DNA of 57,776 bases, taken from assembly GCA_903850335.1 (NCBI GenBank), contig CAINLJ010000164.1, forward strand, positions 1 to 57,776. The letters are read 5' to 3'. Made by a program: the position numbers and the translations under genes. This DNA comes from an uncultured Bacteroidia bacterium. Its GTDB lineage: Bacteria; Bacteroidota; Bacteroidia; Bacteroidales; Prolixibacteraceae. Shown piece by piece: positions 18,439 to 37,587 of this stretch. Below the pieces are notes generated by a model. It did not search any database and had not been told where the DNA came from. It worked only from the letters and a program-made list of their open reading frames with translations. Each line of letters starts with the position of its first letter. Position 1 is the stretch's first letter.

Positions 18439-21432
18439 ATGAAACAACCACTGCTCCTTATTTTAGCTTTAGGATTATTCATCCTTACAGGGTGCCATAA
18501 GAAGGAAACACCAATTGCCGGGTTAAAAATGCTTGAAGGTGGAAAAGTTTTTGCCGTTCCAACAGGAACCATTGCAGATCAGTTTGTATTGAAACGATTC
18601 CCCGATGCACACATTAAGTATTACAACAATGTACTTGACTGTGCATTGTCTGTTAAAGACGGTAAGGCAGACGCCGCCTGTTATGATCAACCCATTCTGA
18701 AAAATATTGCGGGAAAGAATGAAGGCGTCACTGTCTTGTCCGAATTACTCGTTGGTGATCAATATGGGTTTGCTGTTCAGCTAAGTGATACTAAACTGAA
18801 GTCAGCAATAGACTCCGTACTGTCGGCTTTAAAAGCTGATGGTACTTACAAGGACATGATGAAGCGTTGGTTTCCCGATCATGGGGTTCCGGCACCTATG
18901 CCCGATCTGGTCACCAAATCGAATAATGGCAGTAATGGGGTGCTAAAGTTTGGAACTGCCGCGGTCACGGAACCGATGTCTTTCTTTGATTCAAACCACA
19001 AAATTACGGGATTTGATATTGAATTTGCCACGAGAGTTGCTGCCTTTCTCGGTAAAAAACTTGAAATTTCAGATATGGATTTTGGAGCCATGCTCCCTGC
19101 ACTTATATCCGGGAAGGTGGATATGATAGGTGCGGGAATCTCAATCACAGAAGAACGTGCGAAAAAAGTACTGTTTTCACAAAGTTACTATCCAAGCGGT
19201 ATCGCCGCCCTTGTTAAAAGCAATCCCGAAAAAGTATCAAGTTCACAACCCCTCAAATTGGGAACGCCTGAGGATATCAAGGATAGAAAAATCGGTGTAC
19301 TTCTTGGCTCAATTCATGACACCTATGCCAACCGTGATTTCCCTGGTTCTCATATATTGACTTTTCAAAATGTGCCTGATATCATTACTGCTCTGAAATC
19401 TAAAAAGATAGATGTTGCATTTTCCGATCATATCGCATTGAAGGACATCTTTGGAAAGAATCCGGATCTGGACATCTTCGCTGCAAATATTTACACAGTG
19501 CCCATTGCTGCAGCATTTAACAAGGAAAATAACACATTGCGCGAAAAGTTTAATGTTTTCCTTAAAGAGATCAGGTCTAATGGTGTTTACGACGATATGG
19601 TTAACCGGTGGATGATAAAGGGAGAAAGTGAAATGCCTGAGATAAAAACCAATTCAAAGAATGGTCCCTTAAGAGTTGGAGTAGTAGGCGACGGTGGACT
19701 TCCCTCTTCGATACGTCAAAACGGTAAACTGGTGGGATTTGACATTGAATTGCCTGCCCGCTTCGCCGCCTGGCTTGGGATGTCCTTTGAACCTGTTGAC
19801 ATACCTTTTGGAAGCATGCTTGCATCGATATCCACCAATAAGATCGATATCGTCACCTGCCAGTTAATGATCACCGAAGAGAGGAAAAAACAGGTTCTTT
19901 TCTCAGATCCGTATTATGAGTCGGGAATAAGCCTCTATGCCCGGAAGGATCAAATTGCAACCTCCCAAAAGAAGAAATTAACTGTTCTGGAGGATATTGC
20001 CGATAAAAGAATCGGTGTTTTCACAGGAACCGTTCATGATGTATTCGTAAGTAAGAAGTATCCTAAAGCGCAAATCTTCAGGTTTGATGGAAGCACAGAC
20101 CTGATAGCGGCCCTCTCAGGTGATAAAATAGATGTGGCAATGTTTGATAATGCCAATGCTAAACTCATCATGAAAAGGAATAAAGATCTGGGATTACTCA
20201 CCGATGATGTCTTTAGTTTACCTCTCGGTGTTGGATTCAATAAAAACAATCCTGGTCTTAGAGATGAGTTTAATAACTTCTTAAGAGAAATTAAGAAAGA
20301 TGGAACCTATGATAAAATTTATAAACGTTGGTTTGAGGAGGATGCTGAGGTGGCAGTTATGCCAAAATTTAAAGTTCAGCCAACAGGAAAAAAACTGATA
20401 CTCGGCACAAGTGTAAATGATCTGCCCCATGTTTCACTTATGAATGGCGAGTATGTGGGTTTTGATATTGAGATGATCCAGACCTTTGCACAGCGAAATG
20501 GTTATGACATCGAATTCACGTCGATGCTATTTCCTTCCTTGATTCCTGCCCTTGCCTCAGGAAAAGTTGATTTGATAAGTGCAGGAATTGCTATTACCGA
20601 AGAGAGGGCAAAAAAGATTAATTTCTCAGATAGTTTCTGCGATTTTAAGACGGCCCTGATTGCAACAAAAAATAATTTGTCTTCTGTTAGCAGCACCAAT
20701 GATGTAAAAGAAGGAAAAAAGTCCTTCCTAAAAACGGTCAGTGAGAGTTTTCATAACAATATAATTCTTGAGAAAAGATATCTTTTAATTATTGATGGTC
20801 TTAAGCTTACAATACTTATCGCTCTCCTGGCTGCTGTGGTTGGGACAATTATAGGTGGATTGGTTTGCTATCTCAGGATGTCAAAAAGAAAGATCCTCTC
20901 ATTGACAGCAAGGTTTTACATCTCGGTTCTTCGCGGGACGCCAGTCCTTGTATTATTAATGATTATCTATTATGTTGTCTTCGCCTCCGTAAATATCAAT
21001 CCTGCTCTCGTTGCCGTGTTCGCTTTTGGACTTAATTTCGGAGCTTATGTATCCGAGATGTTCAGAACCTCAATCGAAAGTATCGACAGAGGTCAGAAAG
21101 AAGCGGGTATCGCGGGTGGGTTCACAAAAATTCAAACATTCATCTATATCATAATGCCTCAGGCTATCCGTCAGGTGCTGCCTGTTTATAAGGGTGAATT
21201 TATATCGCTTGTGAAGATGACATCTATTGTTGGATATATTGCAGTACAGGATTTAACCAAGGCGAGTGATATAATCCGGAGCCGTACATTCGATGCGTTC
21301 TTCCCTCTTATTATGGCAGCAGTGCTTTATCTTGTCATCGCATGGCTGCTGACCTGGGCACTCGATTATGTCGAGATTACTGTGGATCCAAAAAGAAGTC
21401 GTTTAGCAAATCTAAGAAAGATAAAGAAATGA
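18439..21432 (+). CDS. Polar amino-acid ABC transporter: split/tandem substrate-binding domains fused to permease
   Basis: A 997-residue fusion. A lipoprotein signal ends LTGC (Cys19). Residues about 30-148 match only the second half of an SBP_bac_3 domain. Complete domains follow at about 167-393 and 410-633 (each with GFDIE, SGKVDMI- or TNKIDIV-like stretches, ITEER and a C-terminal DGTYD/NRW-type end). Residues 651-745 are only the first half of a fourth domain. A HisM/GlnP-type permease occupies about 780-980, with the EAA loop [14 protein letters not shown] (888-901). The ATG of the ATPase gene overlaps its stop (ATGA). Glutamine or another polar amino acid is the likely substrate. The half-domain ends suggest internal duplication of a repeat unit cut in mid-domain, or a circularly permuted pairing of the two halves. 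Confidence 0.9.
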
Positions 21433-22508
21433 TCGTAGTAAAAAACCTATCCAAGCATTTTGGCGACCTCGAAGTACTAAAGGATATTAACGCGGAGATC
21501 AAAAAGGGCGAGGTGATATCCGTCATCGGACCTTCAGGAACAGGCAAAAGTACGTTTTTGCGCTGCCTGAACCTCCTTGAGACTCCTACCGGGGGTAGCA
21601 TACTTATTGATGGAATACCATTACTGGATAAAAACACAAACGTTCCCGGAATGCGACAAAAGATGGGTATGGTCTTCCAATCCTTCAATTTGTATGCTCA
21701 TCTGTCCGTCCTGGATAATCTGACGATAGGACCCATAAAACTGTTGCATATAAAAAAAGAGCAGGCAAATAAGAGAGCCCAAGAATTGCTTAAACTTGTG
21801 GGCCTCGGTGAAAAAGCCAATAGTTTTCCTGATGAACTTTCAGGAGGTCAGAAACAACGTGTTGCAATTGCCCGATGTATGGCAATGGAGCCGGAGATTC
21901 TTCTTTTCGATGAGCCAACATCCGCCCTTGATCCAACTATGGTCAGTGAGGTGCTTGCTGTTATCCGGAAACTGGCACGGGAAGGCATGACTATGGTTAT
22001 TGTAACACATGAAATGGAATTTGCCAGAAACATATCCAGTAGGGTATTTTATATGGACGAAGGTCTTATCTATGAAGAAGGTCCGCCTGAAATTATCTTT
22101 GTCAACCCTGTCCGTGAAAAGACTAAGGCCTTTATAAATCGTATCCGGAGTCTTCATTATCACATTTCAAGTCAGGATTATGACCTTTACGCCTTAAATG
22201 CTGAGATAGAAACATTTTGCGAAAAGCATATGCTTCAGGGTAAGACTGCCGAATTCATCTTACTTGTTGCAGAGGAATCTCTTGTACTGCAAAGAGACTT
22301 TCATGATATCGATATCAGTATTTCGTTTACTGAAAAAGATGGAAGTGTCGAAATTGTTTGTGAAGGTACCGGCGATTCTTTTAATCCGCTTGAAGAGGGT
22401 GCGCTTGACGATCCGATCGGATTGAATATACTTCGCAACAGATGCAAGAGCATTGTATACGCATACGAAAAAGGACGAAACATTCTTTCAATGCAAATCA
22501 GAGTTTAA
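21429..22508 (+). CDS. Amino-acid ABC transporter ATPase fused to RsbW-like ATPase domain
   Basis: Residues 1-240 are a GlnQ-type ABC ATPase: Walker [10 protein letters not shown] (34-42), Q-loop Q84, signature LSGGQ (137-141), Walker B ILLFDE (157-162) and the switch histidine H194. Residues 243-359 resemble a GHKL ATPase of the anti-sigma/RsbW kind, with a helix containing VAEES (280-284), a G1-like box GTGDSFNP (313-320) and [12 protein letters not shown] (328-339). The frame is open further upstream, but the ATG at 21429 overlaps the preceding stop and gives the normal ABC N-terminus. It energises the permease fusion encoded just before it. The C-terminal domain could be regulatory. Confidence 0.88.
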
Positions 22509-22592
22509 CTGGGAATTGGAAGAATTAGTACAATCCGGAAGGGAAATTTTAAATGAACTAAAATCACAAAAATTTTAATGCTAATCCATCAC

Positions 22593-22748
22593 ATTGAAAA
22601 TCAGACCTAATAGTGAACGGGTGACGGGGGTCATGGATTGAAGGTCAAACCTAGAAGTGAACGGGTGACGGGGGTCATGCATTGAAAGTCAAACCTAGAA
22701 GTGAACGGGTGACGGGGTTCATGCATTGAAAGTCACCCGGTCACCTGG
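22593..22748. repeat. Three 44-bp tandem repeats plus partial fourth
   Basis: Units start at 22593, 22637 and 22681, each 44 bp and nearly identical; a truncated fourth starts at 22725. Each holds GTGAACGGGTGAC. The last complete unit pairs with GTCACCCGGTCAC (22732-22744), giving a hairpin with its arm at 22700-22713. The same hairpin sequence occurs at 29701-29746, on the other side of the five-gene island. There are no unique spacers, so it is not a CRISPR array. Confidence 0.9.
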
Positions 22749-22770
22749 TCCACATATAATCCCGCGAGGG

Positions 22771-22849
22771 ATTTGATACTGGTAGAAAATCGAATAAAAT
22801 AAAAGTTCTCGTCCAGGCTTGGACGAAATATTCTGCCAGTATCCCAAAT
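22771..22849. repeat. Nested inverted repeat
   Basis: The outer arms GATACTGGTAGAA (22775-22787) and TTCTGCCAGTATC (22831-22843) are complementary with one G-U type mismatch, and pairing extends outward past a 2-base bulge. Inside lies a short perfect hairpin, CGTCCA-GGCT-TGGACG (22810-22825). It may be a small mobile palindrome or a structured RNA. The rest of 22509-22951 shows no gene. Confidence 0.6.
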
Positions 22850-22927
22850 TAACCCCTAATTTAGTGCTTGTGACACAGTCTTCAAAACCAAATCCAGGAT
22901 CAAATTCAATTCAATATTGAAATTTAA

Positions 22928-22942
22928 ACAGATCATATCTGT
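22928..22942 (-). terminator. Possible weak terminator after the five-gene cluster
   Basis: ACAGAT-CAT-ATCTGT is a perfect 6-bp hairpin just past the stop of the last cluster gene. On the minus strand it is followed by an A/T-rich run (TTTAAATTTC). The stem is short, so termination is only plausible. Confidence 0.35.
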
Positions 22943-22951
22943 AATTTTTCC

Positions 22952-25063
22952 CTATTGAGGCAAACTTAAATTCAAAACTTTTGCATCCAGTTGAAGAATA
23001 TTACTCAACGAAAGATCCAGATTACCCGCAGGCTGAACAAGATCCGGCCTTCCGTCAGTAAATTTAACTGTAACCTGATATGAAATTTTCCGGTTTGTAA
23101 GATCCCCTCCTACAGGTATTAAAACAAAGGAAAACTGATATCGGGGCGCATCTTTGGCAAAGGGTATTTGTAAGGGTACAATGACTTTATTATCAGGACT
23201 GCTAAACAAGACTAATATGTTATCAATAAGATATGCATCAAAAAAATCTTTCGATCCTGAAAGGGTCAGATCATTCGGAACCGGACAGGTAACCGTCAGG
23301 CACATTTGATTGGAGTCCTTTTCGGTATAATTTACATTCAGAATCTTTCTCTCATCATAGCTAACGACATAATCAAGGGCAAACTTATTTTGGCCGATAT
23401 TTGTATAGGATGCCTTAAATGCAGCTACCTCTTTTTCTACGTTTCCATTAAGCAGATTAGCAAGGATATTATCTCCAGAGCTAAATGTTTTGAGAATATC
23501 AATAAATGTTATCTCATGGGTATCTCCCTTTTTTGACAATAAAATATTCAGGCTGCTCAGATCATAGACCTGTGTATTATCCTGAACAATCAACGAATTA
23601 ACCTTTACTTCACTATTAGTATTATTAGTGATTTTTATCCCGGTTGCATCACTGGATGCCGTGACAGCCAATCCTGTAATATTCGTCTTCACAAGCGAAA
23701 TATCCAGGGCACTGGTTTCATCATCGTCCGAATTAACGGTAAGGGTCACAGGGAGAGCAAAACTATTGCGCAGGAGTTTGATAAATCCTGCCATATCATT
23801 CAGACCGACTTTTGAGAATGAAAGCATAAAATGATTTATGGATAAATCATCAGTCTGACCAACATAGGTTAATGTAATGTTTTCAAACAGGGTAAACGAA
23901 CTTTGTGTTTTAAGTTCCATATTGCTTCCGGCCGGATACTCAAGAGCAATATCAGTTGCTATGTTAAGATTTTTCTTTAGAAGCGTTTTAAACTGAATAA
24001 GCTGATATTCTGATATTTTCGGAGCAAGCCCAATTGTCAGTGATGCCGAGCTTTTATCAGTCTGTGTATCCTCCATAATAATTACATTCTCCAGATAGGT
24101 GAAAGGAATACCATCTCTCAGCGTAATGGAATAAACAACGGGAACAATAAGAAATGTACCAGGCACAGTTGTTTTCTGGTAGACATTGCTGATTCCCAGA
24201 CTTGTTAACACCGAAGTGTTAAATTTACCTGTAACTGATAAATACGTCGGGTTGGGGGCTGCAATAGGTTGTATATTTATAACAGGGTTTATCCATGCTG
24301 CCCAATCCTGTCCTGAGGACGCACCCGCATCAACACGAAGTTCAAGTTGGATGTCCTGGTTAGCCCATTTTGAAAGATCAGCGGAAATATCCACCAAGGC
24401 TCCCGAATATCTCTTACTTTGAGTGATAACATTTTGAGTGGTCAATACTCCGTTTAAAGTATAAATTACATTAACCGAGAATATAACACCATCAGAGTTT
24501 ACTGCCCCGCTGAGAAGTCCCACTTTCGCATTAAATGTTCCGTTCCCATTAATTTTGAGTGGCATTACTCCCTTGATCATTCCATAATTAACCCACATCG
24601 GATGAGTCCTTAATGAATCATAGGTGCCATTATCTTCCATTAAAACCCTGCTGTTTATAACAAACCCATCACTGCAACCATCCGAACCCATCCAAGGAAG
24701 TGGTTTAATATTTGTTACACTTCCATTTGGCATAACTAAACCACCTGTCCACGTTGCTGTTGCGGCTGATGCCAAAATATTTATCTGGTTCGGATTGAAA
24801 TTAATAAACCGAATCTCCTTAAATATGGAAACATCATTTATCCGTGACGAAATATTAATATTTCTAGTCAAAACAGGACGATTGAGTAGTACTGCCCTGT
24901 TGTCCGAAACACTCTCTCCGGTTGATACAACCTCACTTGCCGAAACAACCTTACGACTGACTACAGGTTCACCGGCTGAAAGTACCTGATTGGATAAAAC
25001 CGGATTATTTGGCAATTCAACTTCTTTATTTATAACTACTTTGCGATTAAAGACAGGTGACAT
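22952..25063 (-). CDS. Large unrecognised beta-rich protein, 703 residues
   Basis: I do not recognise the family. No signal peptide or membrane helix is seen. Residues about 15-65 form an imperfect repeat of the type PVLSNQVLSAGEPVVSRKVV (valine/serine every few residues). Residues about 95-260 look like a beta-sandwich, containing PWMGSDGCSDGF and ending GQDWAAWINPVI, which recalls carbohydrate-binding jelly rolls; this is inference only. The remainder is beta-rich (TLTVNSDDDET, SLTIGLAPKISEYQL). It is the last gene of the five-gene cluster and is separated from the 661-residue gene by a strong hairpin. Confidence 0.75.
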   Translation of the reverse strand: MSPVFNRKVVINKEVELPNNPVLSNQVLSAGEPVVSRKVVSASEVVSTGESVSDNRAVLLNRPVLTRNINISSRINDVSIFKEIRFINFNPNQINILASAATATWTGGLVMPNGSVTNIKPLPWMGSDGCSDGFVINSRVLMEDNGTYDSLRTHPMWVNYGMIKGVMPLKINGNGTFNAKVGLLSGAVNSDGVIFSVNVIYTLNGVLTTQNVITQSKRYSGALVDISADLSKWANQDIQLELRVDAGASSGQDWAAWINPVINIQPIAAPNPTYLSVTGKFNTSVLTSLGISNVYQKTTVPGTFLIVPVVYSITLRDGIPFTYLENVIIMEDTQTDKSSASLTIGLAPKISEYQLIQFKTLLKKNLNIATDIALEYPAGSNMELKTQSSFTLFENITLTYVGQTDDLSINHFMLSFSKVGLNDMAGFIKLLRNSFALPVTLTVNSDDDETSALDISLVKTNITGLAVTASSDATGIKITNNTNSEVKVNSLIVQDNTQVYDLSSLNILLSKKGDTHEITFIDILKTFSSGDNILANLLNGNVEKEVAAFKASYTNIGQNKFALDYVVSYDERKILNVNYTEKDSNQMCLTVTCPVPNDLTLSGSKDFFDAYLIDNILVLFSSPDNKVIVPLQIPFAKDAPRYQFSFVLIPVGGDLTNRKISYQVTVKFTDGRPDLVQPAGNLDLSLSNILQLDAKVLNLSLPQ

Positions 25064-25100
25064 TTTATTTCGGTTTTTAAATAATAACTAAAAAGGAGAA

Positions 25101-25132
25101 GAGGCTGTATCAAACGATATGGATACAGCCTC
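25101..25132. terminator. Intercistronic hairpin within the five-gene cluster
   Basis: GAGGCTGTATC and GATACAGCCTC are perfect 11-bp inverted arms with a 10-base loop. They lie just after the stop of the 661-residue gene and before the 703-residue gene. On the minus strand the stem is followed by TTCTCCTTTTTAG, so it may attenuate transcription into the last gene or protect the upstream mRNA. Confidence 0.6.
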
Positions 25133-25140
25133 AATATTTA

Positions 25141-27126
25141 TTACTTAATCCCCAAATACTGATTTACCAAAGCTACTTTATCTGCAGGTACATCAGGCAG
25201 GGAAACTACTAAAGGACCACTTCCAACTTTTTGAATTACAGGACCTTGCCATTTAATTGACGGATGAGGGAAAGTTCCCTTAACAGTAACGGCAACCTGA
25301 TAACTCCATGGGATATTTGAGCGTGCTTCGGAGGTATACGCTAAATACGACTGAAGAACTTTCGCGTTGTCCGCATTAAACAGTTTCACTTCAGGCTGTC
25401 TGTTAGCCTTTGAAAATGTCACACTTACCTCAACCTGAGGAGGAAGGTCCGTGTCCAGAATAATTGGTGAAATGCGGAGTGTTCCAATCGGATTAGCCGT
25501 TACAACTGCAGATTTCTCAGTCGTTTGGAAGTTTAAGATTACAGGATCCGTCACCTCAACACGGGGGTCGGCATCATATGTAATCCTGCTCATCAGGTTA
25601 ATTTGATTGGTGTCAATACCTGCAGGTGCATCAGTATCCAACCGGGAAAAATCAAAAATGAAAATCGAATCTTTATTTGTTTCGTCCCATATAGCATTAC
25701 CCATATCGTTAACCTTCTTTGGTGAATTCATATTCGCCATCACATAAGCCGGACTTCGGGATACTATGGTTCCCGTATGGTCCGGATATGAAGCAGTAAG
25801 GGCTATTTGATTGATTGGATCTCCGTCGTCCTTACCTGGGGCCGATGGCCAGAAGGCGTTTGCGGAGGCGACAAAATGGATTTTTCGGAAAGCATCATCC
25901 AAATGAACAATCTGAAAATAATTTTTCATCCCTGCATCATCCTGTCCCATCTTATTGGCCAGACCACACATGTCGGACGAAATGAGATTGTACGGAAGGT
26001 AGGATTCTGTAATTGTTTCTTTAAAATTAAGACTTTGATGAACCTGATCATGCTGCACTTTAACAGCTATACTCACGCCAACACACCCGCTGTTATCTGC
26101 TGCCTTTGCCGGGTCAGGTTTTGCAGGTGTCTGATCAACCATTGTCTTTAAAAACCAGTCCTGAATCTTATCAAATACCTTGTCCGTCTGGGCCTGATAC
26201 ATTTTTTGCTGATCTGGCGTCAGGATCATGTTGTCAATTGTAATATCATAAGTCAGGGCCCCCTGCTTTTGCAAATCGCTGAAAGCTCCCTGTACATCTG
26301 CCTTTGCCCATACGTACTGTGCCTTTACCTGGGCCGAAACATACGTGTAGCACATATCATAATCAGCTTCAATCCGTGCAGAAAAAGCATCCATATAAAA
26401 CATATGCTGCAAACGGTGAGACACAAAAATCGGACTGCTGTTCCCCTTGAATGCCTGTTCAAGTATGGTTGCCGGATATTGGCCAAGCATAAAGGTAAAA
26501 GCATTTTCACCTGCCGGATTTGTTGTACCAGTAGATACTACATTCCCTTTATCATCTTTCACAGCTGTATCATAATTGGTCCCTTCGACAATACACATCC
26601 ATGGATCGTCGCCAGTTGCCGGCTTGGCCGCACCCGAAATCATGTTAGAAACTGCGCAAAGATTTGATACGATTGGGACAACACCCAGAACAGGATCCGG
26701 CATTCCATCCATAATTCTCCACCGTGAAAGATTCGAAAAAATTGCATCCTTCATACATCTTGTCTTCAATTGCTGAATGGCTCCTGATATTACCTCATCG
26801 GGTATTTTAAGTGTTGAAGTAAATGCCAATACCCCACCGGCAGTTTCTGTCTCTGCTCCCTGAACATCTATGTTGTCATCGGCGTTCAGAACACCTTCGA
26901 ATTTAACAAAGCTAAACTTATAGGTGCCGTCCGCATTTTGGGCCAACCGTGGTTTATCAGGCTGATAATAAAAGTACATTGGCTTACCTGCAGCTCTTAA
27001 CTGTTCGTTAAAATAATCCGGAAAAATATTAAGCTGATAGGTTTCACCATCCTTTTGCTGAACAACCATCATCTGATTTGGTCCCCAAACAGGACCCAAT
27101 GCGTTACCTTGAAATTGATACGACAT
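25141..27126 (-). CDS. Large unrecognised protein, 661 residues
   Basis: I recognise no family. There is no signal peptide and no transmembrane helix. The N-terminus (SYQFQGNALGPVWGPNQMM) and middle (AQVKAQYVWAKADVQGAF, near 265-282) are mixed alpha/beta. A proline/alanine stretch (DQTPAKPDPAKAADNSG) lies near 335-351. The C-terminal third contains repeated beta segments ending in SLPDVPADKVALVNQYLGIK. Several cysteines are present. It sits 38 bp downstream of the protease gene and could be a structural or carrier partner, but nothing in the sequence proves that. Confidence 0.75.
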   Translation of the reverse strand: MSYQFQGNALGPVWGPNQMMVVQQKDGETYQLNIFPDYFNEQLRAAGKPMYFYYQPDKPRLAQNADGTYKFSFVKFEGVLNADDNIDVQGAETETAGGVLAFTSTLKIPDEVISGAIQQLKTRCMKDAIFSNLSRWRIMDGMPDPVLGVVPIVSNLCAVSNMISGAAKPATGDDPWMCIVEGTNYDTAVKDDKGNVVSTGTTNPAGENAFTFMLGQYPATILEQAFKGNSSPIFVSHRLQHMFYMDAFSARIEADYDMCYTYVSAQVKAQYVWAKADVQGAFSDLQKQGALTYDITIDNMILTPDQQKMYQAQTDKVFDKIQDWFLKTMVDQTPAKPDPAKAADNSGCVGVSIAVKVQHDQVHQSLNFKETITESYLPYNLISSDMCGLANKMGQDDAGMKNYFQIVHLDDAFRKIHFVASANAFWPSAPGKDDGDPINQIALTASYPDHTGTIVSRSPAYVMANMNSPKKVNDMGNAIWDETNKDSIFIFDFSRLDTDAPAGIDTNQINLMSRITYDADPRVEVTDPVILNFQTTEKSAVVTANPIGTLRISPIILDTDLPPQVEVSVTFSKANRQPEVKLFNADNAKVLQSYLAYTSEARSNIPWSYQVAVTVKGTFPHPSIKWQGPVIQKVGSGPLVVSLPDVPADKVALVNQYLGIK

Positions 27127-27164
27127 AATTATTTATTTTTAAGAATCAGTTTAAAATTTCTAAG

Positions 27165-27941
27165 TTAATTACTACCACCGCTGTTATCAGCAGAGCCGTC
27201 AGAGGATGCAGATCCTGATCCTTCAGAATCACCTGAGCCGGATGAAGATGAAGTTGAATCGCCGGAGGCGTCAGCCGAAGTATCTGCCGATGAACTTGTT
27301 GAATTTGTATTGGTTGATTCGGTCGAAGTATCAATTGAAGTATCATCAGGAGTGCTGCTGTTGGAAGGATCTTCTGTGTTATTGCTTGTCGTACCAGCTG
27401 TTGCGTTAGTATCTGAGGTCGGGAAATGAACCATTTGAAGGTTCCAGCCATTTGCCTGGCTCATTGATTCGTATTTGGACGCAAATACGTCAAACGACTC
27501 CTCATATGTTTGGCCCTGATCTGGATCTATGATTTTAAGAAGTGTGCCAGCCCCGGTTCCGTCACCATTAATACCCCTGATGATACGCATATGTATAAAT
27601 ACAGGCGTGGCATCCGAAGGCACCTCATTATCCACAATACCAACAGGACCATAACTCTGGAGATACTGTAGTATGCTGTCAGGCGTTTCACACTTCTGAT
27701 ATTCAATAGTCATTCCCGAAGCGGTTGCAAGATCCTGAATACGATCAGGGGCAAGACCCGTGTTATCATCAAATATCTTCCGGAAATCACTCCCTAAAGA
27801 ATCCATCGCCGTTTCTATTGTAAACGATTGTGTTTTTTTCCACGACAACATCATTGTCGTAACTGTGGCCCAGCAAGCCATAGATTTTGGCTGCGCAATA
27901 ACAGGGATAATTCCCTGAACATCAAATTGAATCTGTCCCAT
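27165..27941 (-). CDS. Papain-like cysteine protease with Ser/Thr/Asp-rich tail
   Basis: Residues 1-172 fit the papain-like C70 (AvrRpt2-type) or C39-like peptidase group. Q17 and C23 lie in IAQPKSMACWATV, H117 in PVFIHMRIIRG and D139 in LLKIIDPDQG, which is the complete Gln-Cys-His-Asp set in correct order. From about 175 to 258 the protein is a low-complexity Ser/Thr/Asn/Asp/Gly tail. No signal peptide is present, so the product is cytoplasmic or leaves by a non-Sec path. It lies between the PLD-like gene (67 bp) and the 661-residue gene (38 bp). Confidence 0.8.
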   Translation of the reverse strand: MGQIQFDVQGIIPVIAQPKSMACWATVTTMMLSWKKTQSFTIETAMDSLGSDFRKIFDDNTGLAPDRIQDLATASGMTIEYQKCETPDSILQYLQSYGPVGIVDNEVPSDATPVFIHMRIIRGINGDGTGAGTLLKIIDPDQGQTYEESFDVFASKYESMSQANGWNLQMVHFPTSDTNATAGTTSNNTEDPSNSSTPDDTSIDTSTESTNTNSTSSSADTSADASGDSTSSSSGSGDSEGSGSASSDGSADNSGGSN

Positions 27942-28008
27942 TTTAGGTGTTTATTAATTTTTGTAGCGTAAGAATTTCTATCAATTGACTTGTAATTAAT
28001 CAAATTTC

Positions 28009-28650
28009 TCATTTGGCACCCTTTTGAGCGATAAGATGTTCAGCAATGAGCTCAGCTGTAAAACGACTTATAGTATCATTGTCAGTAAACACCGATTGTG
28101 TATTATTCTGTGCCTTATATCCTGGTCCGCCTGGCTTCCCGGCAACAACAAAAGTTCCTTCGCCCGAGCCTGACCAGTTTGTGGAACCTTCTCCCCCGAC
28201 CTTCCCATCAGCAACGAAACCTTTCGTGTGTGAGATTTGTCTTGTAGCAGATTGACCAATCACGAAATGGGTATTAAAGGCTGCCAGATTATTTGCCCTG
28301 TCAGCATCGAGTAAAGCCTTCTCGTGAACACCTCCGGCCTGACTCGCATCCAGTGTAATAAGCATTGTAATATTGGGATCCAGGGCCTTGGCCATCAGAA
28401 TCGAGTTTAACTCATCGTCATCAAACCCAAACATATTCAGGTAAAGTGAGACGCTGCACCGTGAGAGAATATGTTTCAGAATGTCGTGTACATCATCGCG
28501 GCCAACATAAAACAAATGAAAATCTTTACTGGCATTGGTTGCAAATGATTTCTCCTGAGTGTATTGCTGGAGATCCAGCAAATCAAATGTCTGCAGGCTC
28601 TCGGAAGGTGTACCGAGTGAATTGCTTGAACTTTGTACTGTGTTTGCCAT
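28009..28650 (-). CDS. Phospholipase D-like protein with one HKD motif
   Basis: This 213-residue protein carries a single HKD signature: H141-T-K143 with D148, then GSTNWS (155-160). That matches single-domain PLD nucleases such as Nuc, which work as homodimers. Residues 40-110 form the expected alpha/beta half (FHLFYVGRDDVHDIL, ITMLITLDAS). The N-terminus is Ser-rich and lacks a signal peptide. Activity could be against DNA or phospholipid. It is 19 bp downstream of the Ser-rich gene, in the same likely operon as the cysteine protease. Confidence 0.82.
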   Translation of the reverse strand: MANTVQSSSNSLGTPSESLQTFDLLDLQQYTQEKSFATNASKDFHLFYVGRDDVHDILKHILSRCSVSLYLNMFGFDDDELNSILMAKALDPNITMLITLDASQAGGVHEKALLDADRANNLAAFNTHFVIGQSATRQISHTKGFVADGKVGGEGSTNWSGSGEGTFVVAGKPGGPGYKAQNNTQSVFTDNDTISRFTAELIAEHLIAQKGAK

Positions 28651-28669
28651 GTTGTTGTCTGTTTTTTAA

Positions 28670-29332
28670 TTAATTGTAACTATCTGAAGAGCTGCTTTCT
28701 GAGGAATTATTCTCTGAAGAGCTATTTTCAGAGGAACTATTCTCAGAGGAGCTATTCTCTGAAGAACTATTTCCCGAAGAGCCATTCTCGGAGGAGCTGC
28801 TATTGGAGGCTTCGGGTCCAGGGTCTTCCGTTGAACCAGAATCCGTTCCTCCTGATGATGAATCTGAATTATTTCCGGTGGAACTTGTATTTATCACTAT
28901 TCCTGTCTGTCCGGTCCTTATGGCTGTGTCCGGAGAAGAAGATGCATAAATAGAAGCTGATAGAGTGTAGTGAATAAATTGATTCGGGAATGAGCCATAA
29001 TGGACATTCGCTAAAACTTTCGCCCCGCCATCCAATCCAGCGTCCTGACCAAAGGAGATCTCTTTAGAAGAGCCGTCATCCCCTTCAATCTTAAAAAGAA
29101 CAAATAAAGCTCCCGATGGTAAATCACTATCGTTCTCAATCGTAGAACAGAAATCGTATTCTATGTTTGGCCGATGGTTATTTTCAACGTTTTTGCCGCC
29201 ATCCTGACTGACATATACTGGATTTTCAGGATAAGTAAAAAATAATTTTGAGGAATCACTCTTCGGTTTATCACTACCACCGGATAAGCCATCTCCTGAA
29301 TCAGGACCGGAATTGTTATCTTCTAAACTCAT
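28670..29332 (-). CDS. Ser/Glu/Asn-repeat protein, first gene of the island
   Basis: This 220-residue protein has an acidic, glycine-rich start, a beta-sandwich-like middle (about 28-150; KLFFTYPENPVYVSQDGG, ALFVLFKIEGDDG) and a C-terminal tail of pentads SSSEN repeated about six times (about 175-220). The DNA for the tail is a 15-bp tandem repeat at about 28680-28800. No signal peptide. I recognise no family. The tail resembles that of the neighbouring protease, suggesting a shared linker or export property. It is the first gene of the probable five-gene operon. Confidence 0.7.
   Translation of the reverse strand: MSLEDNNSGPDSGDGLSGGSDKPKSDSSKLFFTYPENPVYVSQDGGKNVENNHRPNIEYDFCSTIENDSDLPSGALFVLFKIEGDDGSSKEISFGQDAGLDGGAKVLANVHYGSFPNQFIHYTLSASIYASSSPDTAIRTGQTGIVINTSSTGNNSDSSSGGTDSGSTEDPGPEASNSSSSENGSSGNSSSENSSSENSSSENSSSENNSSESSSSDSYN
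28673..28800. repeat. 15-bp coding tandem repeat (SSSEN pentads)
   Basis: Successive copies of about 15 bp (CAGAGGAGCTATTCT and variants) encode the pentads SSSEN. Copies differ by a few synonymous changes. Such arrays change copy number by slippage, so tail length may vary between strains. Confidence 0.8.
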
Positions 29333-29670
29333 AATAGATTATATTTATTGTTAATACTATTTCAATTCATTCCAACCTGAGTTTTCAGACTATAAAAATT
29401 AATGAAACTTTCAGGGTAAACTACCTATCAAAAGGGGTACTTATCCTTATTTCAATATATTTTATTGAAAGAACCCCACAATCCAAAAGGATCTTATAAT
29501 TAATAAAGCTTTCGTGATTTCTTTTCTAATGTTGTATAGGATTGTATTTAGAATTGTTACAAATAAAACATAAGTAGTATAATCCATACAAGTAATTGAT
29601 CAGATATCGTAGAATGTGATGACCTGGTCTTAATAAAAAAGGAATCAAGTTGATTTTTAAGGGTTAGGAG

Positions 29671-29775
29671 AAATCAAATTAATGGATGAATTCCTGAAGT
29701 AGTGAACGGGTGACAGTGTTCAGGTATTGAAAGTCACCCGGTCACTTCAGAAAGTTTCATACATTAATTTGATTT
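29671..29775. repeat. 105-bp palindromic element with nested arms
   Basis: The outer arms AAATCAAATTAATG (29671-29684) and CATTAATTTGATTT (29762-29775) are perfect 14-bp complements. Inner arms AGTGAACGGGTGAC (29701-29714) and GTCACCCGGTCACT (29733-29746) pair with one mismatch and extend through CTGAAG/CTTCAG. The inner hairpin is the same as in the array at 22593-22748. It looks like a MITE- or REP-type element. The surrounding spacer 29333-30074 has no recognisable gene. Confidence 0.85.
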
Positions 29776-29941
29776 GTCTGCAACAGGATTTTATCACAAA
29801 GACTTATTATACAGAATTATAGCACCTTGGAAAATTTAGACTGGTATAGCAATAATCAAAAATTGTTAATAATTCAAAAATCAAAGGAAGGTGTGCCAAT
29901 TCTATAGTGTTTCAGAGGTAAAGGGATTTATGATAAAAGGT

Positions 29942-37023: not shown

Positions 37024-37587
37024 ATGGATGAATTAAAATTACTTTATGGCTTAAGATCCGGTGATAAAGCTGCCTTCGAAGAGCTGGTATCTATTTACTC
37101 CCACAAAGTCCTTAATACTTGCTTTCGCTTTATTCCCAATCAGAAAGATGCCGAGGATATTTCGCAGGAAGTATTTATTGAAATCTATCAATCGATTAAA
37201 ACTTTCAAGGGAAATGCAAAACTTTCATCCTGGATATACCGGATAGCAGTTACAAAATGCCTGGATGAGATCAGAAGACAAAAACGAAAAAAGCGACTTG
37301 TTGAAGCCGGGAGGATGCTGCGACTTGATGAAATTGGGGCATGGATTGGCGGTGGTACCATGCCGGATAAAAAGTTGAATGAAAAGGAGAACGAAAATCT
37401 CGTCTTAAAAACGCTTGATAAATTACCTGAAAATCAAAGAATAGCATTTACTCTTAGTAAAATGGATGGATATTCAAACAAAGAAATTGCACAGATTATG
37501 GATACCACTATTATTGCCGTTGAGTCATTGGTATCTCACGCCAAGAAGAAGATCACCTCTGAATTAATAAAGATTCTACAAAAATAA
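37024..37587 (+). CDS. ECF RNA polymerase sigma factor
   Basis: This 187-residue sigma-70 family member has only regions 2 and 4. Region 2 spans about 10-75 (FRFIPNQKDAEDISQEVFIEIYQ). Region 4 spans about 128-182 (LPENQRIAFTLSKMDGYSNKEIAQIM) with the helix-turn-helix near the C-terminus. A basic linker (RRQKRKKR) precedes region 4. The genes directly downstream, a small membrane protein and a Spy/CnrX-like sensor, resemble the anti-sigma and sensor partners of an envelope-responsive ECF system. It probably controls the downstream locus, including itself. Confidence 0.92.
   Translation: MDELKLLYGLRSGDKAAFEELVSIYSHKVLNTCFRFIPNQKDAEDISQEVFIEIYQSIKTFKGNAKLSSWIYRIAVTKCLDEIRRQKRKKRLVEAGRMLRLDEIGAWIGGGTMPDKKLNEKENENLVLKTLDKLPENQRIAFTLSKMDGYSNKEIAQIMDTTIIAVESLVSHAKKKITSELIKILQK

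Follow-up and report, generated by a model that had tools for sequence, protein, structure and literature searches.

What a papain-like protease and a phospholipase D (PLD)-like protein are doing beside two large proteins of no known family is the question raised by a run of genes on a 57,776-nt contig (CAINLJ010000164.1, hereafter the window) from an uncultured Bacteroidia bacterium of the Prolixibacteraceae. An earlier note on this DNA had read the run as an island of five close minus-strand genes coding for effector enzymes and their companions. The list of open reading frames (ORFs) bears out the five genes, whose products are 220, 213, 258, 661 and 703 amino acids (aa) long and whose gaps, from gene 1 to gene 5, are 19, 67, 38 and 77 bp:

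28670..29332, minus strand: gene 1, 220-aa protein, N-terminal ~150 residues without an assigned family, Ser-rich tail of 5-residue repeats
28009..28650, minus strand: gene 2, 213-aa single-HKD PLD-like protein (H141, K143, D148)
27165..27941, minus strand: gene 3, 258-aa papain-like protease, Pfam Peptidase_C70, Ser-rich tail
25141..27126, minus strand: gene 4, family A core protein, 661 aa
22952..25063, minus strand: gene 5, family B core protein, 703 aa

In line with the earlier note, which knew of no family for them, the 661- and 703-aa proteins matched nothing significantly in Pfam, NCBIfam, PHROGs or PADLOC, and the A and B relatives scanned likewise matched no family significantly. Among solved structures, the A profile had no match in the PDB and the B profile matched only at E > 3; full-text searches of open-licence PubMed Central (PMC) papers brought up nothing that was recognised as describing A or B. 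The two nevertheless recur together. We read 15 full A loci, comprising the window, a Deinococcus taeanensis plasmid, an uncultured Lewinella metagenome-assembled genome (MAG) and 12 loci of a genus designated g190 (11 from a search of that genus and one, G500, from the phylum search), and in 15/15 the next large gene after A on the same strand was a member of family B, with a short A-like ORF between A and B in two g190 loci. The A proteins of the 12 g190 loci are 60-96% identical. In a midpoint-rooted tree of 27 A and A-like proteins, several rows of which were flagged for length or composition, the 15 A proteins made up one starred clade, with the window grouped beside Deinococcus and Lewinella (support 96/94).

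Family B appears recognisable across these groups at moderate scores, strengthened by gene position. The B protein of g190 locus L022 matched residues 294-530 of window B (E 1.9e-9) and was matched in turn by Lewinella B (E 3.7e-8); BLAST found no similarity between window B and Deinococcus B. In profile comparisons by hhalign, the g190 B profile was linked to window B (84.5%, E 7e-6) and to the Deinococcus/Lewinella B profile (77%, E 2e-5), with just 1.6% for the Deinococcus/Lewinella B profile against window B. The idea that B is a distant version of A was unsupported (hhalign probability at most 8%). Two parts of gene 5 have counterparts elsewhere:

23474..24187, minus strand: gene 5 residues 293-530, part in common with g190 B proteins
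24287..24784, minus strand: gene 5 residues 94-259, domain in common with a 183-aa Streptomyces plasmid protein (hhalign 96.5%, E 7e-10)

That Streptomyces protein adjoins a protein annotated as trypsin-like with nSTAND1 and WD40.

The genes around the pair vary from locus to locus. An enzyme gene follows B in 14/15 loci, the window being the one with no enzyme gene at that place, and a family scan covering part of the neighbours assigned several of these enzymes to known families. After B, 10/12 g190 loci carry one protein cluster, three members of which were scanned and found to combine PG_binding_1 with N-acetylmuramidase; one g190 locus has a GH46 chitosanase and one a PG_binding_1 plus CHAP protein, and in both Deinococcus and Lewinella the enzyme is a caspase that carries PG_binding_1 at its C-terminus. 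In three of the 12 g190 loci, B and the enzyme are separated by a gene of 213-220 aa, which in all three belongs to one cluster. Enzymes also precede A: a C1 papain together with an I42 chagasin-type inhibitor in one g190 locus, a caspase together with a trypsin-like protein (the latter just under Pfam cut-offs) in another, and the C70 protease and PLD-like protein in the window. Four divergent gene clusters precede A in 10/12 g190 loci, one of them a histidine kinase (Pfam, single locus scanned) and the others, by reading of the sequences, a probable response regulator, membrane protein and short protein; the Deinococcus locus has a divergent BTAD regulator. None of the enzymes tested by hydropathy had a signal peptide. 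What the loci show is a pair of undescribed proteins that recurs with different hydrolases next to it, and an effector module was a fair reading of the window, since proteases and other hydrolases accompany the large genes in other places as well. Where the note looked to co-occurrence of all five proteins, the A-B pair does recur, but the five-gene set as such was seen only in the window and the enzymes vary.

In four g190 A-B loci (L039, L040, L042, L043) we also observed a nearby gene of one cluster, which we take to encode a site-specific serine recombinase; several of these loci presumably occupy one chromosomal place, next to a pheT-like gene.

In the window, the 258-aa protein belongs to Peptidase_C70 (AvrRpt2 family, PF12385; 70.6 bits against a curated Pfam cut-off of 19). 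The earlier note had credited both enzymes with complete catalytic motifs. This was right for the 213-aa protein, which carries the complete HxKx4D motif of the PLD superfamily, and for protease residues Q17, C23 and H117, which are identical in 4/4 aligned sequences (the window and three homologues), so that both motifs are real; D139 is common to 1/3 homologues, different in another and beyond the end of the third, which was cut before it. Against Pfam PLDc_2 the 213-aa protein scored 20.9 bits (E 3.4e-4), under the curated cut-off of 27, and it gave weak matches to SIR2- and DrmC-type models in PADLOC (E 0.0017-0.012). Both Ser-rich tails are as had been described: Ser accounts for 34% of the protease over its final 83 residues and for 47% of the 220-aa protein over its final 70. 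The reported lack of signal peptides also held: hydropathy, a crude test of secretion, gave no Sec-like hydrophobic N-terminus in the five window proteins (highest score 1.6, compared with 2.6 and 3.2 for two secreted-looking neighbours in other loci) and no membrane segment. No toxin leader (trafficking) domain was found in the five proteins with Pfam and NCBIfam, and no RNA families were found in the window.

The window protease shares its sequence family and its catalytic Q, C and H with peptidase C70, and differs in having a Ser-rich tail and in sitting in a gene run with A and B. AvrRpt2-family C70 proteases are known for type III delivery and for cleavage of plant RIN4. On Undibacterium and Sinorhizobium plasmids, C70-type proteases directly follow two giant proteins without a known family and lie near genes annotated Avs1c or AbiE; a third plasmid record with a C70-type protease has no annotation. 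As candidate relatives of A or B these giants, the first of each being incomplete, were set aside on finding no hhalign similarity.

The A-B gap is 77 bp in the window, 73-83 bp in 10/12 g190 loci, 466 and 503 bp in the two g190 loci with the extra ORF and 5 bp in Lewinella. Six of the 11 short gaps were folded, and 6/6 were more stable than shuffles (z -3.1 to -5.7), with a stem-loop in the same gap in 5/5 g190 loci folded; the window's own structure is as follows:

25101..25132, minus strand: stem-loop in the A-B gap (25064-25140), ~11-bp stem then T-rich, z -5.7

The Deinococcus gap (177 nt, of which a 141-nt stretch was folded) was not more stable (z +0.9). The stem sequence varies between loci while its place is kept, and the RNAalifold covariation term is about 0, so that the stem-loop is backed by position and stability and not by covariation. 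The terminator scan gave no site in the window gap. We suggest that the stem-loop is an attenuator or processing site that would lower B relative to A.

Family A is rare. With the window protein as single query it was found in 1/295 genomes of the order, with a six-row profile in 1/18 genomes of the window's genus, and with a two-row profile in 5/395 genomes of the phylum, one of which, G402, has A-like proteins only. It was found in 1/145 genomes of G402's class, namely G402 itself, and in 12/199 genomes of g190, where one hit was a marginal fragment excluded from the loci read. Window A matched 1 of 72,556 plasmid records, that of Deinococcus taeanensis, and two scans of a genome collection yielded a single A locus, that of the Lewinella MAG. 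Phage records held no A homologue, and viral contigs no homologue of A, B or the protease. The C70 protease (1/395 phylum genomes) and the PLD-like protein (1/393 order genomes) were each found in the window's own genome only. The module is thinly spread and no general feature of the lineage, in keeping with the note's description of it as strain-specific. The A proteins of Deinococcus and Lewinella are 52% identical, their hosts being in different phyla, and this identity, together with the sparse distribution, fits horizontal spread.

More distant relatives of A extend the picture. A profile of 12 A-like proteins, taken from G402 and two alphaproteobacterial plasmids, aligned with the A profile over 518 columns (hhalign 99.9%, E 2.4e-31). 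These proteins are arranged in tandem rows. G402 has three in a row with two caspases. A Paracoccus plasmid has four by tblastn and a fifth by eye, in a row that directly follows a trypsin-EAD1 protein, an EAD1 protein and an AAA/STAND-like ATPase and that has a PLDc_2 protein nearby; a Pararhizobium plasmid has two by tblastn and two more by eye. On the latter (L049:1884-16487) we noted seven complete large hypothetical proteins in a row, several of them A-like, and no enzyme is annotated among the genes of that row. One A-like cluster, L025, contains a weak Tail_P2_I match, under the cut-off.

We tentatively favour a modular killing system, and give somewhat less than an even chance to a constant, undescribed A-B core that would serve a variable set of exchangeable hydrolases in conflict or cell death. 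Starting from a pair that is observed with varying hydrolases, we infer complex formation, killing and a target. A and B would assemble in the cytoplasm into a complex by which the enzymes are held or aimed, with the stem-loop between their genes yielding A in excess of B. A signal, which might be a protease cut, an ATPase or, in other genomes, a two-component system, would free or activate the enzymes; these would destroy proteins, nucleic acid or lipid (the PLD-like enzyme), or cell wall, and so kill the carrier cell in a response of the conflict or abortive-infection type. For the window, the C70 protease would probably be partnered with the PLD-like enzyme, acting with it or on it.

A role in intracellular conflict or cell death is our first choice because of a published conflict system (Kaur et al. 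2020, PMC7159879) that joins trypsin, NucA and EAD1 to effectors resembling lysozyme and papain, and because A-like proteins stand beside trypsin-EAD1 once. The available part of that paper describes exchangeable effectors, lysozyme-like and papain-like enzymes among them, which is one likeness to the loci read here; the Paracoccus row directly after trypsin-EAD1, EAD1 and the AAA/STAND-like ATPase is another. The differences are that EAD1 and NucA are absent from the window proteins and from the part of the A-B neighbours that was scanned, EAD1 being seen only in the Paracoccus A-like cluster (L050); that the core of a NucA-type nuclease and trypsin (Kaur System 3) is missing among the five window proteins; and that A and B are undescribed in the portion of PMC7159879 at hand. 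In protease-activated nuclease pairs (HamMAB and canu; PMC12799240, seen in part), a protease gene lies beside a possible nuclease gene, as in the window, but the proteases named there are trypsin-like and caspase, and the words 'papain', 'phospholipase D' and 'PLD' do not occur in the part of the text that could be searched. By analogy, the nucleases in the accessible part of PMC12799240 suggest how the C70 protease and the PLD-like enzyme might cooperate. Bacterial gasdermin operons likewise place protease genes beside a possible substrate protein; A and B differ from gasdermins in their much greater size and in lacking a match to any known family.

Several points weigh against a killing system. 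The killing step is inferred from the names of the enzymes. Cytoplasmic cell-wall enzymes cannot reach the wall unaided, so suicide requires a membrane step, and nothing recognised at these loci supplies one. The trypsin/EAD1/ATPase context comes from one A-like cluster and from no A-B pair proper, and among the five window proteins Pfam finds no EAD, NTPase, caspase or trypsin. Window A, window B and three relatives were unmatched in PADLOC-DB up to E 0.1. Because a single enzyme type accounts for ten of the 12 g190 loci and the A proteins of the 12 are related, the independent changes of enzyme are few, about five by an estimate that was not counted on the tree. Finally, the I42 inhibitor beside the C1 protease fits a delivered toxin with its immunity protein equally well.

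This last point leads to the strongest competitor, which we consider doubtful, namely a delivered toxin complex in which A-B is a carrier or injector-like particle kept in the cytoplasm and the enzymes are its cargo, meant for other bacteria or host cells, the complex leaving the cell by lysis or by an unknown route. Payload exchange is typical of polymorphic toxins, according to the part of PMC3482391 that was available. The tested enzymes, cell-wall enzymes among them, are without signal peptides, the chagasin-type inhibitor resembles producer immunity, and a stem-loop after A would suit the production of a major subunit in larger amounts than a minor one. Against delivery, the I42 gene is the one immunity gene recognised, in the course of a reading that included no systematic search for such genes; the neighbours scanned, a minority of all, included no phage-tail gene, and the Tail_P2_I match in L025 is weak. 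The type VI secretion system sheath VipB (PF05943) was found in 0/28 genomes (A present in 13, A-like proteins in one, neither in 14), in a search that divergent sheaths may escape, only E. coli having matched among 14 controls. On a further view, about as doubtful, A, B and the tandem A-like relatives would form the structural core of an undescribed machine, a cytoplasmic assembly of major A and minor B that cages, aims or delivers exchangeable hydrolases (muramidase, CHAP, chitosanase, caspase, papains, trypsin-like and PLD) and is unrelated to contractile injectors, gasdermins and known toxin complexes.

Two further accounts seem improbable to us, each to a similar degree. One is a predatory or nutritional set that digests prey proteins, chitosan and cell walls, with A-B helping in binding or export. 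Digestion is a possible activity of chitosanase, muramidase, CHAP and papain, and a two-component-like cluster precedes A in 10/12 g190 loci, with the kinase confirmed by Pfam in one; yet caspases and EAD1 do not fit such a set, the distribution is very sparse, the tested enzymes lack a signal peptide by hydropathy, and NCBIfam, run on the window's five proteins and on A and B relatives alone, showed no secretion-tail model among its matches. The other is a chance neighbourhood, with A-B as the sole unit and the protease, PLD and Ser-rich genes as unrelated passengers. It would account for the absence of C70 and PLD homologues from the other genomes searched, and the related proteases on the Undibacterium and Sinorhizobium plasmids do follow giants without similarity to A or B. 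The window genes, however, lie on the same strand with gaps of 19-77 bp, and in other hosts, too, the protease/PLD theme is met next to A-like proteins.

Should the core prove real, it would constitute an unnamed system in which two proteins absent from every family library consulted go together with as many as eight destructive enzyme classes (muramidase, chitosanase, CHAP, caspase, C1 and C70 papains, trypsin-like and PLD-like). Lewinella and Deinococcus are among its hosts, and A has relatives in Alphaproteobacteria; the system would offer a handle for finding further cell-death or toxin modules and a route to the function of two large families.

The earlier note had further proposed that a palindromic repeat brackets the five genes and that the module is mobile. 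The repeat is indeed present on both sides of the gene set:

22592..22749: left repeat copies, three 44-bp tandem units, outside the module
29668..29778: right repeat copy, one unit within a longer hairpin, outside the module
22807..22828, minus strand: terminator-like hairpin 3' of gene 5, not above chance

On the left, the complementary arm closes only the last of the three units. On the right, the longer hairpin spans 29662-29784 (z -9.8) and has 23-nt outer arms that give it the look of a miniature inverted-repeat transposable element. The hairpin 3' of gene 5 comes from a scan in which four terminator-like hairpins were found against 5.0 expected. The 14-mer AGTGAMCGGGTGAC, with at most one mismatch, occurs at 49 sites in the 5.5-Mb genome (reversed-pattern control, 0), and these sites group into 20 clusters spread over 18 contigs. 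Of four genus-mate stretches, one held a single copy of the complementary arm. Since the repeat is dispersed genome-wide, two clusters 7 kb apart mark no island, and the repeat was ruled out as an island boundary; for any one cluster the expected number of others within 7.1 kb is about 0.05, which makes a bracket mildly unusual at one chosen place but not special across 20 clusters. Many hairpin copies, in places in tandem, are also a feature of dispersed palindromic repeats of the repetitive extragenic palindromic (REP) kind. Repeats on both sides of a gene set, it follows as a caution, need not be an island boundary.

The proposal of a mobile module found no support: no mobility gene was recognised by eye in the ORFs, there is no shift in composition, and the repeat is genome-wide. 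The GC content and third-position GC content (GC3) of the five genes are close to the window's values, and recent foreign DNA was accordingly not seen by composition. The transporter on the left flank is present in 4/12 drawn genus mates, where different genes follow it. In these four genus-mate stretches (5.8-19.5 kb, the 5.8-kb one at a contig end) there was no sign of the module or of the window's right flank, so that the comparison of related strains that the note had called for could show no clean empty site.

Elsewhere in the window, a 997-aa transporter (18439-22508) looks by eye like three substrate-binding repeats fused to a permease, and its gene overlaps that of its ATPase, the C-terminus of which appears to be extended by another domain. 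Between 43563 and 50000, two genes of 1017 and 448 aa, to which no function was assigned, have a long similar N-terminal region by eye and belong to a series of genes with secreted-looking products that follows a sigma-factor-like gene at 37024. At the contig end (56692-57681) is what we take to be an RHS-repeat-like C-terminal protein.

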